From Vogesella urethralis (GTDB lineage Bacteria > Pseudomonadota > Gammaproteobacteria > Burkholderiales > Chromobacteriaceae): 64,000 nucleotides of DNA. The notes below the pieces were generated by a model. That model made no database searches. It saw only the letters and a list, made by a program, of their open reading frames with translations, and had not been told where the DNA came from. The stretch is taken from contig NZ_VMDW02000136.1 in the NCBI RefSeq assembly GCF_007644045.2, positions 1 through 64,000 of the forward strand, in the 5' to 3' direction. This document shows, one piece after another, positions 8,418-48,587 of the stretch; the stretch's first letter is position 1, and each line of letters begins with the position of its first letter. A program made the position numbers and the translations under genes.

Positions 8418-8668
8418 GCAGCATCCGCATCCTGTACTTTGGCCGTCTGAAAGACGCCGTCGGCCACGCCGACGAAACCCTGGACTGGGCCGGTGGCAGC
8501 ACCAGCCAGCTGCTGGCGCAACTGCGCGGCCGTGGCGAGGCGTGGGCCGGCGCGCTGGCCGAGGGCCAGGTGTTCCGCCTGGTCGTCAACCAGCAGATCG
8601 TGCGCGGCGACGCCGACATCCCGGTCGGGGCCGAAGTCGGCATTCTGCCGCCGGTAACGGGGGGCTGA
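8414..8668 (+). CDS. moaD: Molybdopterin synthase small subunit MoaD
   Basis: This 84-residue ubiquitin-fold sulfur carrier ends in the required Gly-Gly (PPVTGG), which carries the thiocarboxylate sulfur inserted into c[15 protein letters not shown] and [24 protein letters not shown] are typical of the family. It overlaps mobB by four bases and is followed one base later by moaE, its partner in the synthase, so the three genes should be translationally coupled. Confidence 0.96.
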
Positions 8669-8669
8669 C

Positions 8670-9128
8670 ATGCATTGCGACATCACCATCCAGACCGCGC
8701 CGTTTGACCTGGGCGCCGAAGAGGCGGCGCTGCGTGCGCAAGCCGGCGACGCCGGCGCGCTGGTGGCGTTCCAGGGCATGGTGCGCGGCCACGACGCCGC
8801 CATCCCGCTGACGGCGCTGTTCCTGGAGCACTACCCGGGCGTGACCGAAGCCGAAATCCGCCGCATTGCCGAGGACGCCGCCGCACGTTGGCCGCTGACG
8901 GCGGTACGGGTCATTCACCGCGTGGGCAGCCTGGCGCCAGGCGAGGGCATCGTGCTAGTGCTGGTGGCGTCCGGCCACCGCGCGGCGGCGTTCGCCGGCG
9001 CGGCCTTCCTGATGGACTACCTGAAAACCGAAGCGCCGTTCTGGAAGCGCGAACACTTTGCCGACGGCAGCCAGCGCTGGGTGGACGCCAAGGCCAGCGA
9101 CGGCGACGCCGCCGCGCGCTGGGCCTGA
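8670..9128 (+). CDS. moaE: Molybdopterin synthase large subunit MoaE
   Basis: This 152-residue catalytic subunit converts cPMP to molybdopterin with sulfur from MoaD. Visible family motifs are FQGMVRG, LFLEHYPGVTEAEI, HRVGSLAPGE and DYLKTEAPFWKRE, which holds the catalytic lysines. The length is normal. It follows moaD directly and ends the mobB-moaDE unit; a gap of about 365 bp separates it from narK1. Confidence 0.96.
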   Translation: MHCDITIQTAPFDLGAEEAALRAQAGDAGALVAFQGMVRGHDAAIPLTALFLEHYPGVTEAEIRRIAEDAAARWPLTAVRVIHRVGSLAPGEGIVLVLVASGHRAAAFAGAAFLMDYLKTEAPFWKREHFADGSQRWVDAKASDGDAAARWA

Positions 9129-40262: not shown

Positions 40263-41477
40263 ATGCTGCGCCTCAGCCATTACCTGCATACTTTGTTGCA
40301 TCCCGCCCCCTTGCCGCCGGCGCGCCGCCCGGCCGGCCCGGTGGTGATCTGGAACCTGCTGCGCCGTTGCAACCTTACCTGCCAGCACTGCTACGCCACC
40401 AGCGCCGACCGCGACTTTGCCGGCGAGCTGTCGCTGGACGAGCTGTACGCGGTAATGGACGACCTGAAAGCCTGTGGCGTGTCGGTGCTGATTCTCAGCG
40501 GTGGCGAACCGCTGCTGCACCCGGCCATTCACCAGCTGGGGCAGCGCGCCAAGGCGATGGGCTTCTACGTGGGCTTGTCCAGCAACGGTACGCTGGTGGA
40601 CGCGGCCAACGTTGGCCGCATTGCCGAAACGGGCTACGACTACGTTGGCGTCAGCCTGGATGGCATTGGCGCCACCCACGACCACTTCCGGCGGCTGGCA
40701 GGGGCTTACGACCGCTCACTAGCGGCTATCCGCCTGCTGCGCGATGCTGGCATGAAGGTGGGTGTGCGCTACACCATGACCGAAGGCAATGCCCACGACC
40801 TGCCGGCGTTGCTGCAGCTGGTGGCCGACGAAGGCATCGACAAGTTCTACTTTTCGCACCTCAATTACGCCGGCCGTGGCAACAAGCACCGCGACGGCGA
40901 CGCGCGCCACCAGCGTACCCGCTGGGCGCTGGACTTGCTGATCGACGCCGCGCTGGGCCACGTGCGCGCCGGGCGGCAAAAGGATTTCGTTACCGGCAAC
41001 AACGACGCCGATGCCGTCTACCTGCTGCAGTGGGCGCGCCGGCACTATCCGCTACAAGCGGATGCATTGGCGGCCCGCCTGCAGCAATGGGGCGGTAACG
41101 CCAGCGGCGTAGGGGTGGCCAATATCGATAACCTGGGCAATGTGCACCCGGACACCATGTGGTGGAAAGTGTCGCTGGGCAATGTGCGGCAGCGGCCGTT
41201 TTCGGCCATCTGGGCCGACGCGGCCAACCCCTTGCTGGCCGGGCTGCGGCAACGGCCGCGGCCGGTGGCGGGGCGCTGCGGGGCGTGCCGGCACCTGGCC
41301 ATCTGCAACGGCAATACCCGCATCCGCGCCTGGGAGCTGAGCGGCGATTTCTGGCAGGCCGACCCCGGCTGCTACCTGCACGATGCCGAAATCGGCGTGC
41401 CCGACGGCGCCTACCCGCTGCCAGCGCTGTCGCCGTGGCAACGGCCGCTCACGCTGCAACGCGAGGTGCAATCATGA
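40263..41477 (+). CDS. nirJ: Heme d1 biosynthesis radical SAM protein NirJ
   Basis: This 404-residue radical SAM protein removes propionate side chains in heme d1 synthesis. The SAM cluster is CNLTCQHCYA near residue 40, followed by LILSGGEPLLHP. A C-terminal cysteine group (CGACRHLAICNGNTRIRAW) marks the SPASM-like auxiliary cluster. I chose the ATG at 40263 after CGGAG. The coding sequence holds the perfect 18-bp palindrome GCGGCCAACGTTGGCCGC (40612-40629). Its stop overlaps the nirN start by four bases. Confidence 0.94.
   Translation: MLRLSHYLHTLLHPAPLPPARRPAGPVVIWNLLRRCNLTCQHCYATSADRDFAGELSLDELYAVMDDLKACGVSVLILSGGEPLLHPAIHQLGQRAKAMGFYVGLSSNGTLVDAANVGRIAETGYDYVGVSLDGIGATHDHFRRLAGAYDRSLAAIRLLRDAGMKVGVRYTMTEGNAHDLPALLQLVADEGIDKFYFSHLNYAGRGNKHRDGDARHQRTRWALDLLIDAALGHVRAGRQKDFVTGNNDADAVYLLQWARRHYPLQADALAARLQQWGGNASGVGVANIDNLGNVHPDTMWWKVSLGNVRQRPFSAIWADAANPLLAGLRQRPRPVAGRCGACRHLAICNGNTRIRAWELSGDFWQADPGCYLHDAEIGVPDGAYPLPALSPWQRPLTLQREVQS
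40612..40629. repeat. Perfect palindrome of the GCGGCCAAC word
   Basis: GCGGCCAAC is joined directly to its complement GTTGGCCGC inside nirJ (Asp-Ala-Ala-Asn-Val-Gly-Arg). Another near-palindrome of the same word lies at 58915-58932 in the ABC permease gene. Confidence 0.7.
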
Positions 41478-43048
41478 GCGCCCGCCACCTTGCCGCCACG
41501 CTAGCCTGGCTGCTGGCTGCGCCACTGTGGGCAGCCAGCCCGGCCACGCCTGCCACGGGCGCCCGCGCCGCTGCGCTGTACGACCAGCATTGCCAGGCCT
41601 GCCACGGTGCCGACCGGCTGGGCGGCATGGGCCCGGCGCTGCTGCTGCAAAGCCTGGAGCGGCTGAAGCCGGGCGAGGTCCTGGCCATACTGCGCGATGG
41701 GCGGGCCGCTACCCAGATGCCGGCGTTTGCTGGCCGTATCGACGACGCCGAACTGGCGCAGCTGGCCGCCTGGCTGGCTACTGCCCCGGCCCAGCCGCCG
41801 CAGTGGACGGCCGCCGACATGGCCGCGTCCCGCGTGCAGTACGTGGCAGAAGCCAGCCTGCCCGCCAGCGCGCAGCTGCCGGCCGGGGTAGACCCGCATA
41901 ACCTGTTTGTGGTGGTGGAGGCGGGCGATCACCATGTGTCGGTGGTGGACGGCGACCACTTCACGCGGCTGGCACGCTTCCAGAGCCGCTTTGCCCTGCA
42001 CGGCGGGCCCAAGTTTTCGCCCGACGGCCGCTTTGTCTACTTCGCCAGCCGCGACGGCTGGGTCAGCCAGTACGACCTGTACAGCCAGCGCATGGTGGCC
42101 GAAATCCGCGTCGGCCTGAATACGCGCAACCTGGCGGTATCGGCCGACGGGCGCTGGGTGCTGGCCGGCAATACGCTGCCGGAAACGCTGGTGCTGCTGG
42201 ACGCACACGGCCTGACGCCGCGCCAGACCTGGCCGGTAAGCGACCGCCACGGCCGGCTGTCACGGGTGTCGGCGGTGTACGATGCCGCGCCGCGGCAGAG
42301 CTTTATCGTGGCGCTGAAAGACAGCGCCGAATTATGGGAGATCAGCTACAACCCGCAGGCGGCGCCGGTCTACCCCGGTATGGTGCACGACTACCGCATG
42401 GGCGAGGGTGTGGCGCTGCCGGGTTTCCTGCAGCCGCGTGTCACCGCGCTGGACATGGTGCTGGACGACTTCTTTTTCGACCCGGCTTACCGCCACGTGA
42501 TGGCGGCGTCGCGCGAGGGCCGCGCCGAGGTCATCCAGCTGGATACCGGCGTGAAAGTGGCCGACCTGGTGCTGGACGGCATGCCGCACCTGGGTTCGGG
42601 CATTACCTTCGAGCGCGACGGCCAGCGCCTGATGGCCACGCCCAACCTGAAAGGCGGCAAGGTAACGGTGATCGACATGTACCGTTGGCAGCTGGTGAGC
42701 CAGATTGCCACACCGGGGCCGGGTTTTTTTCTGCGCAGCCACGAAAATTCGCCCTACGCCTGGGTGGACGCCATGATGTCGCCGCGCAAGGACACGCTGG
42801 GCATCATCGACAAGCGCACCTTGCAGCTGGTGAAAACCCTGAGCGTGCGCCCCGGCAAGACCAACGCCCACGTCGAGTTCACCCGCGATGGCCGCTACGT
42901 TCTGCTGAGCATCATGGAAAGCCCGGGCGAGCTGGTGGTGCTGGACGCCGGCACCCTGGCCGAGGTGGCCAGCCTGCCGATGAACAAGCCGATCGGCAAA
43001 TACAACGTTTACAACAAGATCAACCGCTCGGACGGCACCAGCCATTAG
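41474..43048 (+). CDS. nirN: Dihydro-heme d1 dehydrogenase NirN
   Basis: This 524-residue periplasmic protein resembles NirS: a signal peptide, a heme c domain with CQACH near residue 40, and a d1-type propeller. NirN introduces the last double bond in heme d1 and hands it to NirS. LHGGPKFSPDGRFVYFASRDGWVSQYDLYS and the PGPGFFLRSHENSPYAW segment are typical. It follows nirJ with a four-base overlap and ends at an inverted pair of the GCGGCC word. Confidence 0.93.
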   Translation: MSARHLAATLAWLLAAPLWAASPATPATGARAAALYDQHCQACHGADRLGGMGPALLLQSLERLKPGEVLAILRDGRAATQMPAFAGRIDDAELAQLAAWLATAPAQPPQWTAADMAASRVQYVAEASLPASAQLPAGVDPHNLFVVVEAGDHHVSVVDGDHFTRLARFQSRFALHGGPKFSPDGRFVYFASRDGWVSQYDLYSQRMVAEIRVGLNTRNLAVSADGRWVLAGNTLPETLVLLDAHGLTPRQTWPVSDRHGRLSRVSAVYDAAPRQSFIVALKDSAELWEISYNPQAAPVYPGMVHDYRMGEGVALPGFLQPRVTALDMVLDDFFFDPAYRHVMAASREGRAEVIQLDTGVKVADLVLDGMPHLGSGITFERDGQRLMATPNLKGGKVTVIDMYRWQLVSQIATPGPGFFLRSHENSPYAWVDAMMSPRKDTLGIIDKRTLQLVKTLSVRPGKTNAHVEFTRDGRYVLLSIMESPGELVVLDAGTLAEVASLPMNKPIGKYNVYNKINRSDGTSH

Positions 43049-43079: not shown

Positions 43080-43185
43080 CTCGGGGCTGCGGCGTGCTCC
43101 GGCTTTTCGGTCTAGGTCTTCTGGCCGATGCCGCGATGGTGGCCGCCTGCGCTAGGCTGCCGCTTTGTCTTGTGGGGGCCACATC

Positions 43186-43866
43186 ATGAGCCAGATCGAC
43201 GTCGGTGCCTTCCTGCAGCACCAGCCGCTGTTCCAGCAATTGTCGCCGGCGCAGCGCGCCGCACTGGTGCCGGGCACCCGCGAGGTGCGCGGCCAGAAGG
43301 GGCAGGTGATTTTCCAGAAGGGCGACCCTTGCGACGGCATGTACGTGGTGGTGTTCGGCAAGGTCAAGCTGGCGCTGACGGCGCAGAACGGCCAGGAAAA
43401 GGTGATGGAAATCCTGCACCCCGGGCAGAGCTTTGCCGAGGCAGTGATGTTCCTGAACCGGCCGTGCCCGGTGATGGCGCAGTTCCTGGAAGACGGCCTG
43501 CTGCTGCACGTCAGTGCCGACGTCATCATGGGTGCGTTGGCCACCGACCCCGGTTTTGCCCGCCGCATGCTGGCCGGCTTGTCGCTGCGCTTGCACAGCA
43601 TGGTGCGCGACGTGGAACGCTACTCGGTGGAAAGCTCGCGCCAGCGCGTGGCCAGCTATCTGCTGCAGCAGGCGCCGGCGCAGGCCGACGGCACCGTGGT
43701 ACACCTGCCGGTCAACAAGAACCTGATCGCTTCCCGCCTCAATCTCACCCCGGAAACCTTCTCGCGCATGCTGCACCAGCTGGCAGACGAAGGCCTGATC
43801 GACGTGCAGGGCCGCGACATCGTGTTGTGCGATGTGGCCGGCCTGCAGCAGGACGGCCACGCCTGA
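43186..43866 (+). CDS. dnr: Crp/Fnr-family regulator, Dnr/NnrR type
   Basis: This 226-residue regulator has a cNMP-type sensor barrel (GQVIFQKGDPCDGMYVVVFGKVKLAL), a long dimer helix and a C-terminal winged helix with LIASRLNLTPETFSRMLHQLADEGLI. The E-(x)2-SR recognition helix predicts TTGAT-N4-ATCAA sites. There is no N-terminal cysteine set for the Fnr [4Fe-4S] cluster, so it is Dnr/NnrR-like and probably senses NO. Position next to nir genes fits control of nor and nir. Confidence 0.85.
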   Translation: MSQIDVGAFLQHQPLFQQLSPAQRAALVPGTREVRGQKGQVIFQKGDPCDGMYVVVFGKVKLALTAQNGQEKVMEILHPGQSFAEAVMFLNRPCPVMAQFLEDGLLLHVSADVIMGALATDPGFARRMLAGLSLRLHSMVRDVERYSVESSRQRVASYLLQQAPAQADGTVVHLPVNKNLIASRLNLTPETFSRMLHQLADEGLIDVQGRDIVLCDVAGLQQDGHA

Positions 43867-43879
43867 GCAGGGGCCGGCG

Positions 43880-44602
43880 CTAGCCGCCCCGCAGGCTGAA
43901 GTTGTCAAAGCGGGCGGCGGTGTCGGCCAGCAGCGCCGCGCCGGGCCAGCCGGGTGGCGCAGGCTGCCAGTGGGCCGTCGCCTCCGGCGGCGGCCGCAGC
44001 AGCTGCCAGTGGTAATGCCGTACGCCACGGCCGGCCAGCCACGCCGCCATGCGTTGCAAGGTGCGCGGCGTGTGCCACTGCGGGTGGATGCTGCTGCGGC
44101 ATTCAAACGCCACGCCGCTGGCTTGCAGTAGCGACAGGCTGTGCTGCACGCGCTGGCCGCTGCCGGCCACGCCGGTCAGCGCCGCGTAGTGCGGCGGCAG
44201 TGTCTTGATATCCAGCCCTACCCAGTCCAGCAGCGGCAAGACGGCGGCCAACCTTGGCGGGTGGCTGCCGCCGGTGTGCAGGCCGGTGGCAAAGCCCATA
44301 GACCGTACCGCAGCCAGCAACTGCGGCAGGGCCGGCTCCTGCAGCGGTTCGCCGCCGGAAAACACCACCCCGTCCAGCAGGCCGCGCCGCTGCGAGAGCC
44401 AAGCCAGAAAGCGCGGCCAGTCGGCGCTGCCGGCTTGCCGCGTCAGCAGGTGCGGGTTGTGGCAATAGCCGCAGCGCCACGGGCAGCCGGCCAGAAACAC
44501 CACCGCACACAGCCGCCCCGGCCAATCGCAGGCCGAAAACGGCTGCCAGCCGCCCAGCCGCGCGCTAGCGGCGTCCGGGTTCGTCGAAGTGGCGGCGTTC
44601 AT
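43880..44602 (-). CDS. nrdG: Anaerobic ribonucleotide reductase activase NrdG
   Basis: This 240-residue radical SAM enzyme generates the glycyl radical on NrdD. The cluster motif is CPWRCGYC (GCPWRCGYCHNP), followed by DGVVFSGGEPLQEP. Length and the C-terminal QLLRPPPEA-type region resemble the NrdG group of pseudomonads. Its 5' end overlaps the 3' end of the glycyl-radical ORF by 38 bases, which couples the two. Convergent with the dnr gene. Confidence 0.92.
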   Translation of the reverse strand: MNAATSTNPDAASARLGGWQPFSACDWPGRLCAVVFLAGCPWRCGYCHNPHLLTRQAGSADWPRFLAWLSQRRGLLDGVVFSGGEPLQEPALPQLLAAVRSMGFATGLHTGGSHPPRLAAVLPLLDWVGLDIKTLPPHYAALTGVAGSGQRVQHSLSLLQASGVAFECRSSIHPQWHTPRTLQRMAAWLAGRGVRHYHWQLLRPPPEATAHWQPAPPGWPGAALLADTAARFDNFSLRGG

Positions 44603-44738
44603 CGAATTCGCCTTGTTTGCCGGTATTGAACGAGGCTACCGGGCGGTGGTAGCCCATCACGCGGGTCCAGATTTCGCAGCGGGTGCGTTCGCTGTCGTCC
44701 AGTTGCGGGCGGGGGGTGTCGGGGATAGGCTGGGTCAT
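44565..44738 (-). CDS. Separate glycyl-radical C-terminal piece of NrdD
   Basis: This 57-residue ORF reads MTQPIPDTPRPQLDDS, then RTRCEIWTRVMGYHRPV and FNTGKQGEFDERRHF. This is the C-terminal glycyl-radical segment normally fused to NrdD. The RVxGY motif places the radical Gly at residue 29. The ATG overlaps the nrdD stop (ATGA), in a different frame, and has its own Shine-Dalgarno AAGGAG (44751-44746) seven bases upstream. nrdG overlaps its end by 38 bases. It is too short for most gene finders. A sequencing frameshift is the main alternative, but the RBS, ATGA overlap and complete motif argue for a genuine gene. Confidence 0.85.
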   Translation of the reverse strand: MTQPIPDTPRPQLDDSERTRCEIWTRVMGYHRPVASFNTGKQGEFDERRHFDEPGRR

Positions 44739-46477
44739 GCGATGGCTCCTTCAGGGTTGGCCGCAGCGGCGGTCTGGCGCGCCAGCAGCTCGGCGTCGCA
44801 GCGCGGGCAGAATTCGTGGCGGCCGGACAGATAGCCGTGTTGCGGGCAGATGGAAAACGTGGGGGTGATGGTGATGTAGGGCAGGCGGAAGTTTTCCAGC
44901 GCCCGCCGCACCAGCTGGCGGCAGGCGTCGGCGCTGGACACCGCCTCGGTCATGTACAGGTGCAGCACGGTGCCGCCGGTATAGCGCGATTGCAGCGCCT
45001 CCTGGTGCGCCAGCGCGGCAAACGGGTCGTCGGTGTGGCCTACCGGCAGCTGGCTGGAGTTGGTGTAGTACGGCTTGTCGGCGCTGCCGGCCTGCAATAT
45101 GCCGGGGTAGCGCTTGCGGTCTTCGCGGGCAAAGCGGTAGGTGGTGCCTTCGGCCGGCGTGGCTTCCAGGTTGTACAGGTGGCCGGTGTCGTGCTGGATG
45201 GCCACGATGCGCTGGCGGATATGGTCCAGGTAGCGGCAGGCAAAGGCATGGCCGCTGTCGCTGCTGATGTCGTCTTGCCCGGCGCTGAAGTTGCGGATCA
45301 TCTCGTTGATGCCGTTTACCCCCAGCGTGGAGAAGTGGTTGCGCAGGCTGCCCAGGTAATGCTTGGTGTACGGGTACAGCCCGGCGTCGATGTGCTGTTG
45401 CACCACGCGGCGGCGCGCTTCCAGCACCTGGCTGCCCAGCGCCAGCAGGCGGTCGGTGGCGGCCAGCAGCGCGGCTTCGTCGCCGGCGTGCAGGTAACCC
45501 AGCCGCGCGCAGTTGACGGTCACCACACCCACCGACCCGGTTTGCTCGGCGCTGCCGAACAGGCCGTTACCACGCTTGGCCAGCTCGCGCAGGTCCAGCT
45601 GCAGGCGGCAGCACATGCTGCGCACCATGTGCGGCTGCAGGTCGGAGTTCACGAAGTTCTGGAAGTAGGGCAGGCCGTACTTGGCGGTCATGGCAAACAG
45701 CTGCTCGGTGTTGGGGCCGTACCAGTCGAAATCGCGGGTGATGTTGTAGGTGGGGATGGGGAAGGTAAACGCGCGGCCACGGGCGTCGCCGGCCAGCATC
45801 ACCTCGATGAAGGCGCGGTTGATCATGGCCATCTCGGCGGCGCAGTCGCCGTAGCGGAACGGCATGTCCTCGCCGCCGATCACCGGAATCTGCTCGCGCA
45901 GGTCGTCGGGGCAGACCCAGTCGAAGGTGAGGTTGGTGAACGGTGTTTGCGTGCCCCAGCGGCTGGGGACGTTCAGGTTGTACACCAGCTCCTGCAGGCA
46001 CTGCCGCACCTGCGGGTAGCCCAGCCCGTCCTTGCGGATGAACGGTGCCAGGTAGGTGTCGAACGAGCTGAACGCCTGCGCGCCGGCCCACTCGTTCTGC
46101 AGCGTGCCCAGAAAGTTGACGATCTGGCCGCAGGCGCTGGACAGGTGGCGCGGCGGTGCCGATTCCACCTTGCCGCCCACGCCGGAAAACCCCAGCTGCA
46201 GCAGCGTGCGCAGCGACCAGCCGGCGCAGTAGCCGGACAGCATGTCCAGGTCGTGGATGTGCAGGTCGCCGTGGCGGTGGGCCTGGGCGGCGTCGGCGCT
46301 GAACACGGCGTTCAGCCAGTATTCGGCGCTGAGCTTGCCCGCCATGTTGAGGATCATGCCGCCCAGGCTGTAGCCCTGGTTGGCGTTGGCCTGTACCCGC
46401 CAGTCGGCGCGGCTCAGGTATTCCCGCACGGTGCTCACGGCGTCCACGTGGCCGGCGGCGAGGGGTGTTGAATGCAT
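44735..46477 (-). CDS. nrdD: Anaerobic ribonucleoside-triphosphate reductase NrdD, lacking glycyl-radical segment
   Basis: This 580-residue class III reductase body makes dNTPs without oxygen. Active-site cysteine regions are visible (SSACGQIVNF, MCCRLQLDL, VVTVNCARLGYL), and the zinc site is near the C-terminus (CPQH..CPRC). There is no N-terminal ATP-cone. The protein stops at PEGAIA, before the RVxGY radical motif, which is on the next ORF (44565-44738). I chose the ATG at 46477 after AGGAGGT. The promoter region holds an Fnr/Dnr box and two NrdR-like boxes. Confidence 0.93.
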   Translation of the reverse strand: MHSTPLAAGHVDAVSTVREYLSRADWRVQANANQGYSLGGMILNMAGKLSAEYWLNAVFSADAAQAHRHGDLHIHDLDMLSGYCAGWSLRTLLQLGFSGVGGKVESAPPRHLSSACGQIVNFLGTLQNEWAGAQAFSSFDTYLAPFIRKDGLGYPQVRQCLQELVYNLNVPSRWGTQTPFTNLTFDWVCPDDLREQIPVIGGEDMPFRYGDCAAEMAMINRAFIEVMLAGDARGRAFTFPIPTYNITRDFDWYGPNTEQLFAMTAKYGLPYFQNFVNSDLQPHMVRSMCCRLQLDLRELAKRGNGLFGSAEQTGSVGVVTVNCARLGYLHAGDEAALLAATDRLLALGSQVLEARRRVVQQHIDAGLYPYTKHYLGSLRNHFSTLGVNGINEMIRNFSAGQDDISSDSGHAFACRYLDHIRQRIVAIQHDTGHLYNLEATPAEGTTYRFAREDRKRYPGILQAGSADKPYYTNSSQLPVGHTDDPFAALAHQEALQSRYTGGTVLHLYMTEAVSSADACRQLVRRALENFRLPYITITPTFSICPQHGYLSGRHEFCPRCDAELLARQTAAAANPEGAIA

Positions 46478-46506
46478 TTTGCATACCTCCTGAAGCGATG
46501 GCGAAA

Positions 46507-46552: not shown

Positions 46553-46566
46553 TTGATCGCCATCAA
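46553..46566. promoter_or_regulatory. Perfect Fnr/Dnr box between nrdD and ubiU
   Basis: TTGAT-CGCC-ATCAA lies in the divergent region. For nrdD it is roughly 40 bp upstream of a start placed from the TATACA hexamer, the class II activator position. It could also affect ubiU, 109 bp away. Confidence 0.8.
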
Positions 46567-46674: not shown

Positions 46675-47673
46675 ATGCAGCTACCAGAGCTGGTCTGTCC
46701 GGCCGGCAACCTGCCCGCCCTGAAGGCCGCCGTCGATCACGGTGCCGACTGCGTCTACCTGGGCTTGAACAACGACACCAACGCCCGCCATTTCGCCGGG
46801 CTCAACTTTGACGCCGCCAGCGCCCGCGAAGGCCTGCGCTACGCCCGCCAGCGCGGGGTAAAGGTGCTGCTGGCCATCAATACCTTTGCCCAGGCCGGCG
46901 AAGAAGCCCGCTGGCGCGCGGCGGTGGACGAGGCGGCAGCGCTGGCGGTGGACGCGGTGATCCTGGCCGATTTCGGCCTGCTCGATTACGCCAGCCAGCG
47001 CCACCCGCAGCTGCGCCTGCATCTGTCGGTGCAAGGCTCGGCCAGCAATTACGAAGCCATCAACCTTGCGCAGCGCATGTTCGGCGTGCAGCGCGCGGTG
47101 CTGCCGCGCGTGCTCAGCCTGGAGCAGGTGGCGCAGGTGATGGCCGGTACCACGGTGGAAATCGAGGTGTTCGGCTTTGGCAGCCTGTGCGTGATGGCCG
47201 AAGGGCGTTGCCACCTGTCCAGCTACGCTACCGGCGAGTCGCCCAATACCCACGGCGTGTGCTCGCCGGCCCGCCACGTACGCTGGCTGCCGCACGCCCG
47301 CGGCACAGAGGCACGGCTGAACGGGGTGCTGATCGACGATTTTGCCCACGACGAGCCGCGTGGCTACCCCACGCTGTGCAAGGGGCGCTTTCACGTGGGC
47401 GACAGCCTGGGCTACGCGCTGGAAGAGCCCACCAGCCTTAATGTGCTGCCCTTGCTGCCAAGGCTGATCGACATGGGCGTGGCGGCCATCAAGGTAGAAG
47501 GGCGGCAACGCAGCCCGGCCTACGTGGCGCAGGTAACGCGCACGCTGCGCCAGGCGCTGGACGAGGCGCACCGGCCCGGCTGGCAGCCGCCAGCCGCGCT
47601 GATGCAGCAACTGGGCCGGGTTTCCGAAGGACAACAAGTGACACTGGGGGCGTACAGCAGACCATGGAAGTAA
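46675..47673 (+). CDS. ubiU: O2-independent ubiquinone hydroxylation protein UbiU (U32 family)
   Basis: This 332-residue protein works with UbiV to hydroxylate the ubiquinone ring without oxygen. It has the peptidase U32 fold and the four cysteines for the [4Fe-4S] cluster: [29 protein letters not shown] and [16 protein letters not shown] precedes the ATG. It is divergent from nrdD and starts the ubiU-ubiV-ubiT unit; quinone supply fits anaerobic nitrate respiration. Confidence 0.92.
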
Positions 47674-48587
47674 GCCGACATACCGCATTACCACTACAGC
47701 TGGCCATCGGCCCCGTGCTGTATTTCTGGCCGCGCGACGAGGTGATGCGCTTTTATGCCGACGTGGCCGACTGGCCGGTGGACCGCGTCTATCTGGGCGA
47801 AGTGGTGTGCTCGCGCCGCCAGCAGCTGCGGGTGGACGACTGGCTGGGCCTGGCCGCCGACCTGCAGGCCGCCGGCAAGCAGGCGGTGCTGTCCAGCCAG
47901 GGCTTGCTGGAGAGCGAGTCCGACCTCAAGCGCCTGCGCCGGCTGCTGGATGGTGCCGGCGTTCTGGTGGAAGCCAACGATACCGGCGCCGTCGGCCTGC
48001 TGCAGCAACGCGGGCTGCCGTTTGTGGCCGGCCCGCACCTCAACATTTACAACGCCGCCACGCTGGCGCTGTACCAGCGTTGGGGGGCGCAGCGCTGGGT
48101 GCCGCCACTGGAAATGCCGGCGCAGCGGGTGCAGGCCATTGCCGGCACCTTGCCGCAGCTGGATACCGAAGTGTTTGCCTGGGGGCGGATGCCGCTGGCG
48201 TTCTCGTCGCGTTGTTTTACCGCCCGCCACGCAGGGCTGAACAAGGACAGCTGCGAATTCCGTTGCCTGGCGCACCCTGATGGCATGCCGCTGCGCACCC
48301 GCGAGCAGCAGGGCTTTTTGCAGATCAACGGTACCCAGACGCAGTCGGCCGCCTGCCACAGCCTGCTGGACGAGCTGCACACCTTGCCGGCGCTGGGGGT
48401 GACGGCCATCCGCCTCAGCCCGCACAGCCAGCACTTTGGCGCGGTAGTGCAATGGGCCGCCGCCCGTCTGCGCGGCGAGCCGGCCGGCGAAGCACTGGTT
48501 GGCCTGGCGCCGGCCCCATTGGTCAACGGGTTCTGGCATGGCCAGCCCGGCATGCAACAGTACGGAGCACACCATGACTGCCATTGA
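47664..48587 (+). CDS. ubiV: O2-independent ubiquinone hydroxylation protein UbiV (U32 family)
   Basis: This 307-residue U32-family partner of UbiU has cysteines in [28 protein letters not shown], matching the UbiV cluster motif. It overlaps ubiU by ten bases and ubiT by 14, so the three genes are coupled. The N-terminal [45 protein letters not shown] is typical of UbiV. Confidence 0.92.

Follow-up and report, generated by a model that had tools for sequence, protein, structure and literature searches.

Organization of the nrdD locus

The locus considered here lies in a stretch of 64,000 nucleotides (nt) from Vogesella urethralis (contig NZ_VMDW02000136.1, positions 1 to 64,000; the window) and carries the genes of a class III, i.e. 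anaerobic, ribonucleotide reductase (RNR) whose NrdD chain is divided between two reading frames. All three genes are read from the minus strand: nrdD (44735..46477) encodes a body of 580 residues with the class III RNR barrel and the zinc site, the next gene (44565..44738) a glycyl-radical-domain peptide (GRD) of 57 residues, and nrdG (43880..44602) a radical-SAM activase of the NrdG2 type. The nrdD stop and the GRD start overlap as ATGA (44735..44738), as read from the sequence, and both genes are preceded by Shine-Dalgarno sequences with 7-nt spacing, AGGAGGT at 46485..46491 for the body and AAGGAG at 44746..44751 for the GRD. With its first ATG taken as start, nrdG begins at 44602, i.e. 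inside the GRD gene. A preliminary description, made from the letters of the window, had reported that nrdD ends past the zinc site, that the radical segment has its own 57-codon open reading frame (ORF) with its own Shine-Dalgarno site, and that both ends of this ORF overlap the neighboring genes, and all of this is found as described.

The two products are complementary, as they share out the Pfam NRDD model (PF13597, cut-off 26.2 bits) between them: the body covers positions 2-528 of 562 with 560 bits, the GRD ORF positions 532-562 with 31.3 bits. The body also scores 1003.5 bits with PRK08270 (cut-off 548), its residue 10 aligning to position 98 of this 684-position model, and up to E = 1 Pfam gives NRDD alone and no ATP-cone, in line with the earlier designation of the body as "cone-less". 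In Thermotoga maritima NrdD the body aligns to residues 102-609 and the GRD profile, searched against PDB sequences, to residues 616-644, a match that is weak by itself (E 0.88) and spans Gly621, the radical glycine of this enzyme (PMC4493059). The glycyl-radical motif RVxGY expected of a class III RNR is located outside the body, on the 57-residue peptide, so that the radical glycine and the barrel do not belong to the same polypeptide but to products of separate genes. The nrdG product scores 178 bits with TIGR02495 (cut-off 131), which places an activase near nrdD, as expected for this class. At E ≤ 0.001 the genome contains no further NRDD match and no match to PF01228, the glycyl-radical domain of the pyruvate formate-lyase (PFL) type. 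It does contain two more RNR barrels, which, judging by length and score alone, we take to be those of a class I and a class II enzyme.

Conservation and probable separate translation of the two pieces

A protein search of named genomes found at least 560 relatives, the best 80 of which, from beta-, gamma- and alphaproteobacteria, were analysed. The arrangement, whose occurrence elsewhere had been left as a possibility, is the rule among them: in 78 of the 80 the GRD is a separate downstream ORF with the body stop ahead of it, and the other two loci (L041 and L089) are undecided, their contigs ending 122 and 264 nt past the body stop. The 4-nt overlap, which had been proposed as part of the same conservation check, is found in just five of the 78 loci, out of 15 in which body and GRD overlap at all. 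Overlaps of just this length are present in V. aquatica (98% identical) and Beta proteobacterium L13 (97%), so that the one in the window is not due to chance, and a further one occurs in the split form on a plasmid of Sulfuricurvum kujiense (Campylobacterota). The gap between body and GRD reaches +246 nt at its longest and −149 nt (L063) at its shortest, followed by −20 nt; as the GRD start was taken to be the last ATG that lies nine or more residues ahead of the conserved cysteine, single gaps, including that of L063, may be off. The small gene is also annotated on plasmids of Cupriavidus, Bradyrhizobium and Shinella, and a GRD gene is readable in Paracoccus.

Sequencing errors and decaying pseudogenes are a common cause of split genes in general, but here the identical split occurs in independent assemblies of Pseudomonadota and one of Campylobacterota. 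Moreover, the GRD is, judging from its codons, under purifying selection: over the 39 core codons the mean ratio of nonsynonymous to synonymous polymorphism (pN/pS) is 0.207 for eight Chromobacteriaceae and near kin, 0.011 for nine Achromobacter and 0.174 for eight Oxalobacteraceae, and 40 aligned GRDs have 15 invariant columns, including C21, R26, V27, M28, G29, Y30, R32, P33, N38, G40 and K41. Since, in addition, 78 of the 80 relatives are split and all three frame relations occur among them, we regard an error or a pseudogene as practically out of the question.

The 4 nt shared by the two ORFs of the window would also suit programmed frameshifting or stop codon readthrough, either of which would yield a single chain. 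Such a mechanism is, however, hard to reconcile with GRD phases relative to the body that spread over 23, 30 and 25 of the 78 loci, with gaps of the length given above and with two to three stops between the pieces in six of the 23 in-phase loci. GRD starts have a Shine-Dalgarno sequence of their own, with at least 4 nt in 61 of 78 loci as compared to about 10% of 1743 ATGs within bodies. In one genome (G124) an entire gene, whose product combines B12-binding, radical-SAM and DUF4070 domains, separates body and GRD, and in another (G068) the GRD-nrdG pair lies about 10 kb away from the body. Body and GRD thus are independent genes that can become separated in the genome, and production of one chain by recoding is extremely improbable. 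Genes of the B12-binding or radical-SAM/DUF4070 kind repeatedly adjoin GRDs (L134, 4138-6006; L296, 2076-3974; L297, 4211-5800).

The frequency of the split was estimated from draws of genomes at four taxonomic ranks, which have some genomes in common and were counted by hand from the listed rows. In the genus, NrdD is present in 11 of 13 genomes and is split in all 11; in the order, NrdD occurs in 95 of 300 genomes, 76 split, 17 fused and two undecided among the GRD rows listed, with five of the split genomes additionally containing a fused NrdD of another type; in the class, 38 of 369 genomes have NrdD, 28 split, seven fused and three undecided. Thirteen loci that looked like re-fusions, a single open-frame length being listed for body and GRD (four in the genus draw, nine in the order draw; L140-L152), were rejected as such, a stop being present between body and GRD in all of them. 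A tree of 69 bodies, 12 of them fused and phage L158 among these, contains at least five changes between split and fused, of which the starred branches force two; as 27 of 66 inner branches are open, we claim no order of these events.

Split genes, their conservation, selection on the peptide, separate translation signals and the complementary coverage of known NrdD make a two-piece reading as good as shown at the level of sequence, and we are highly confident that a real and widespread two-piece class III RNR exists. The suggestion of such an enzyme in the preliminary description is thereby borne out, also by the foreign gene that separates body and GRD in G124. In this enzyme the glycine that NrdG converts to a stable radical would come from a peptide of about 50-70 residues with a translation start of its own, and the NrdD chain would contribute the zinc site, the barrel and the finger-loop cysteines. 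The peptide would dock without covalent link where ordinary NrdD has its C-terminal loop, the holoenzyme would then work in the usual way, and the peptide could be replaced after cleavage by oxygen. Non-covalent assembly, the location of the radical on the peptide and its replacement are what we infer from the genes. A structural model of body and GRD joined superposes on T. maritima (4COI/4U3E), P. copri (8P23) and T4 (1H78) NrdD.

Several points weigh against this picture. Natural fusions exist in Acidiphilium cryptum, in Actinomyces oris and, within the window's order, in five genomes belonging to a single family, which shows that the enzyme can do without the split. Across the phylum as a whole, fused NrdD is the more common form: NrdD was found in 34 of 299 genomes of this draw, 23 fused and nine split, the remainder being one in-phase locus with two stops (G1004), probably split, and one undecided (G1077), which has the same look as the 13 apparent re-fusions. 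Relatives with an uninterrupted nrdD, which had been named beforehand as a finding that would speak against the split, thus do exist, yet they do not refute it. The joined model contains an artificial linker (predicted local distance difference test, pLDDT, about 50), is based on 42 rows and has a mean pLDDT of 77.8, with the finger-loop stretch 311-336 below 50, and docking of the peptide in it is to be expected because the predictor knows fused NrdD. As separate proteins, body and GRD are predicted from their genes. A functional link, which comes from a citing paper and is stated for NrdDG, is offered by Cupriavidus necator H16, whose plasmid pHG1 carries the split form (a 676-residue body, a 66-residue GRD, H16_RS32675, and nrdG): NrdDG is reported there to be essential for complete denitrification, with reference to Siedow 1999 (PMC2864759). 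For strain CH34 the corresponding statement names just Rmet_5137 and Rmet_5139, and as a GRD ORF is present at the CH34 locus (L154), Rmet_5138 is presumably the GRD gene. As for G1004, a genome of 0.9 Mb from outside the class of the window, its in-phase NrdD match with two internal TAA lies at C4:123722-125521; G976, likewise of 0.9 Mb, is split.

In the window, ubiU and ubiV (46675-48587, plus strand; oxygen-independent ubiquinone synthesis, both above NCBIfam cut-offs) are divergent from nrdD. The common intergenic region contains, between nrdD and ubiU, the palindrome TTGATGGCGATCAA (46553..46566), which, judged by the consensus, we take to be a candidate FNR/Dnr-like site. A gene for a CRP/FNR-family regulator (43165-43866, plus strand), with best matches to FtrB models below their cut-offs, converges on nrdG and is a candidate for regulating the nrdD-GRD-nrdG cluster. 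It is preceded by a gene that joins cytochrome c and a beta-propeller (41471-43048, plus strand; weak cytochrome c550/c551 and PQQ-type propeller matches, all below cut-offs).

Stand-alone copies of the radical peptide

GRD genes also occur without a body. Two Allochromatium plasmids carry GRD genes of 69 and 61 codons, with no other NRDD match across the whole records. Five genomes that have a body and GRD set contain extra GRDs, in part within regions resembling prophages or conjugative or integrative elements: in G301 next to endolysin, spanin, holin and tail-fibre-assembly matches and an integrase; in G311 one by Phage_tail_S and one near AcaB, DnaB and a weak SSB match; in G616 near RecT, YqaJ and an RNR barrel; in G136 by a DUF3363 protein (a relaxase match below cut-off) and a topoisomerase; and in G229 by a B12 radical-SAM gene, with no sign of mobility seen there. 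In G210, GRD and nrdG are present and no body was found, the contig ending at that place. When mobile copies were compared with 146 rows, some of them duplicates, the host's own GRD ranked first for L197, tied first for L137, third for L139 (behind two of the same family) and ninth for L136, i.e. the mobile copies resemble host GRDs. In the phage-like region of L197 (7215-9965), a PF02867 RNR barrel, as in other RNR classes, lies at a distance of about 2 kb to the extra GRD, so that one element holds RNR parts of two classes.

A search of IMG/VR with the GRD profile gave 196 relatives, the best 80 of which were analysed, many records being fragments. In 79 of the 80 contigs the GRD occurs without a body: an NRDD scan of the whole records of 49 revealed 48 with a GRD alone and one (L238) with a body, and the remaining 31, taken whole, gave no tblastn match to the window body, a search that distant bodies could escape. 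A separate search of viral contigs for nrdD body relatives found none; its query patterns were exact peptides of the window protein, so distant viral bodies could be missed. The body of L238 is interrupted by about 140 codons inserted in frame (about 8519-8940), which could be an intein. NrdG gave no match within the fetched stretches. The 79 viral GRDs amount to 61 distinct core peptides; by a lenient count, 41 of the 56 distinct copies that start with ATG have a Shine-Dalgarno sequence of at least 4 nt at some upstream ATG. A cysteine 8 residues ahead of the radical glycine is kept in 76 of 79 and is Val in L215, L237 and L240. Nine viral GRDs (L216, L221, L225, L241, L246, L247, L253, L263 and L274) have, judged by eye, an extra N-terminal cysteine-rich stretch.

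As IMG/VR assignments are predictions, these contigs might be mis-called bacterial or plasmid DNA, and no phage-borne family would then exist; in favor of this, three queries of 50,697 GenBank phage records yielded whole NrdD only and, up to E = 1, not one stand-alone GRD. Against such a mis-call, the neighbors of the viral GRDs (70 of 113 upstream and 62 of 107 downstream scanned) give small numbers of matches to the following among the 25 families listed first, out of 98 upstream and 104 downstream: upstream portal (4), large terminase (3 and 1), DNA polymerase (3), endolysin (2) and tail sheath (1), and downstream minor head protein (3), head-tail adaptor (3 and 2) and portal (2). Furthermore, the extra copy of G301 is flanked by holin, endolysin and spanin matches, and the peptides match part of the phage family phrog_4132: the window GRD with E 1.1e-07 over only positions 117-154 of 179, and, together with it, all eight viral or plasmid GRDs scanned at about 115-159. 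Hence, we consider it quite unlikely that the phage-borne family is an artifact of classification.

Instead of donating a working radical, the mobile GRDs could bind NrdD or NrdG of the host and act as inhibitors or decoys. Inhibition of host enzymes is frequent in phages, and the lack of NrdG matches in the fetched viral stretches would be compatible with it. Yet R-V/I/A-MGY fits all 79 viral copies, in part by selection, as one of the two search patterns required VMGYHRP, a viral group of eight has a pN/pS of about 0.22, and the phage-like copies of G616 and G311 are closest or tied closest to the GRD of their own host. A decoy function thus deserves consideration, although we think it improbable.

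Possible spare parts and known systems

The body-less plasmid, prophage-like and viral-contig copies strengthen the earlier idea that the radical is carried on an exchangeable peptide, the biochemical exchange itself being something that we infer. We consider it rather probable that a mobile GRD, carried without nrdD or nrdG on phages, plasmids or integrative elements, supplies or repairs the class III RNR of the host, and the likeliest role of the mobile copies appears to be that of providing host NrdD with a fresh radical peptide. The mobile element would deliver the GRD, host NrdG would charge it, and the charged GRD would restore the host enzyme after oxygen damage. If so, this would be, to our knowledge, the first such system for a glycyl radical enzyme other than PFL.

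Barrel, zinc site, radical motif and NrdG partner are as in the NrdD enzymes of known structure named above, in which, in contrast to the window, the radical domain forms the C-terminus of the same chain. The parallel with YfiD/GrcA, drawn in the preliminary description, and with T4 Y06I, the spare parts of PFL (PMC8683613), holds in that these, too, are small, free-standing glycyl-radical peptides, one of them phage-borne. It does not extend to the family: the 57-residue peptide has no PF01228 match, which GrcA/YfiD would require, and Pfam gives NRDD alone up to E = 1; moreover, the window GRD is the sole NRDD radical segment found in its genome, and its partner is an RNR instead of PFL. Among spare-part proteins, just YfiD and Y06I are reported to be validated, and others have been speculated on (PMC8683613).

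The split RNR NrdJa/NrdJb of Pseudomonas aeruginosa belongs to class II, is cobalamin-dependent and has no glycyl radical, unlike the enzyme of the window. As here, it is encoded by two genes (PMC4520616). Phage nrdD genes likewise occur in pieces, interrupted by introns, inteins and homing endonucleases (PMC3653736), whereas the nrdD of the window is free of inserts and is divided at the border of the radical segment. In PHROGs, phrog_4132 is of unknown function, with no link to RNR. The open-access literature searched, to the extent of its excerpts, has no description of a split NrdD radical domain or of phage NrdD radical peptides, and an earlier notice elsewhere is possible.

The findings bear on the published question whether spare parts for glycyl radical enzymes exist beyond PFL (PMC8683613), suggest a testable function for phrog_4132 and explain small genes annotated as "nrdD" that annotation has hitherto left without explanation. 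The split enzyme would be a natural two-component system, whose radical part could be exchanged, replaced or given a label while the catalytic body stays as it is. Taken together, in many NrdD-using bacteria of the order an essential radical enzyme seems to keep its radical on a small, separate peptide.
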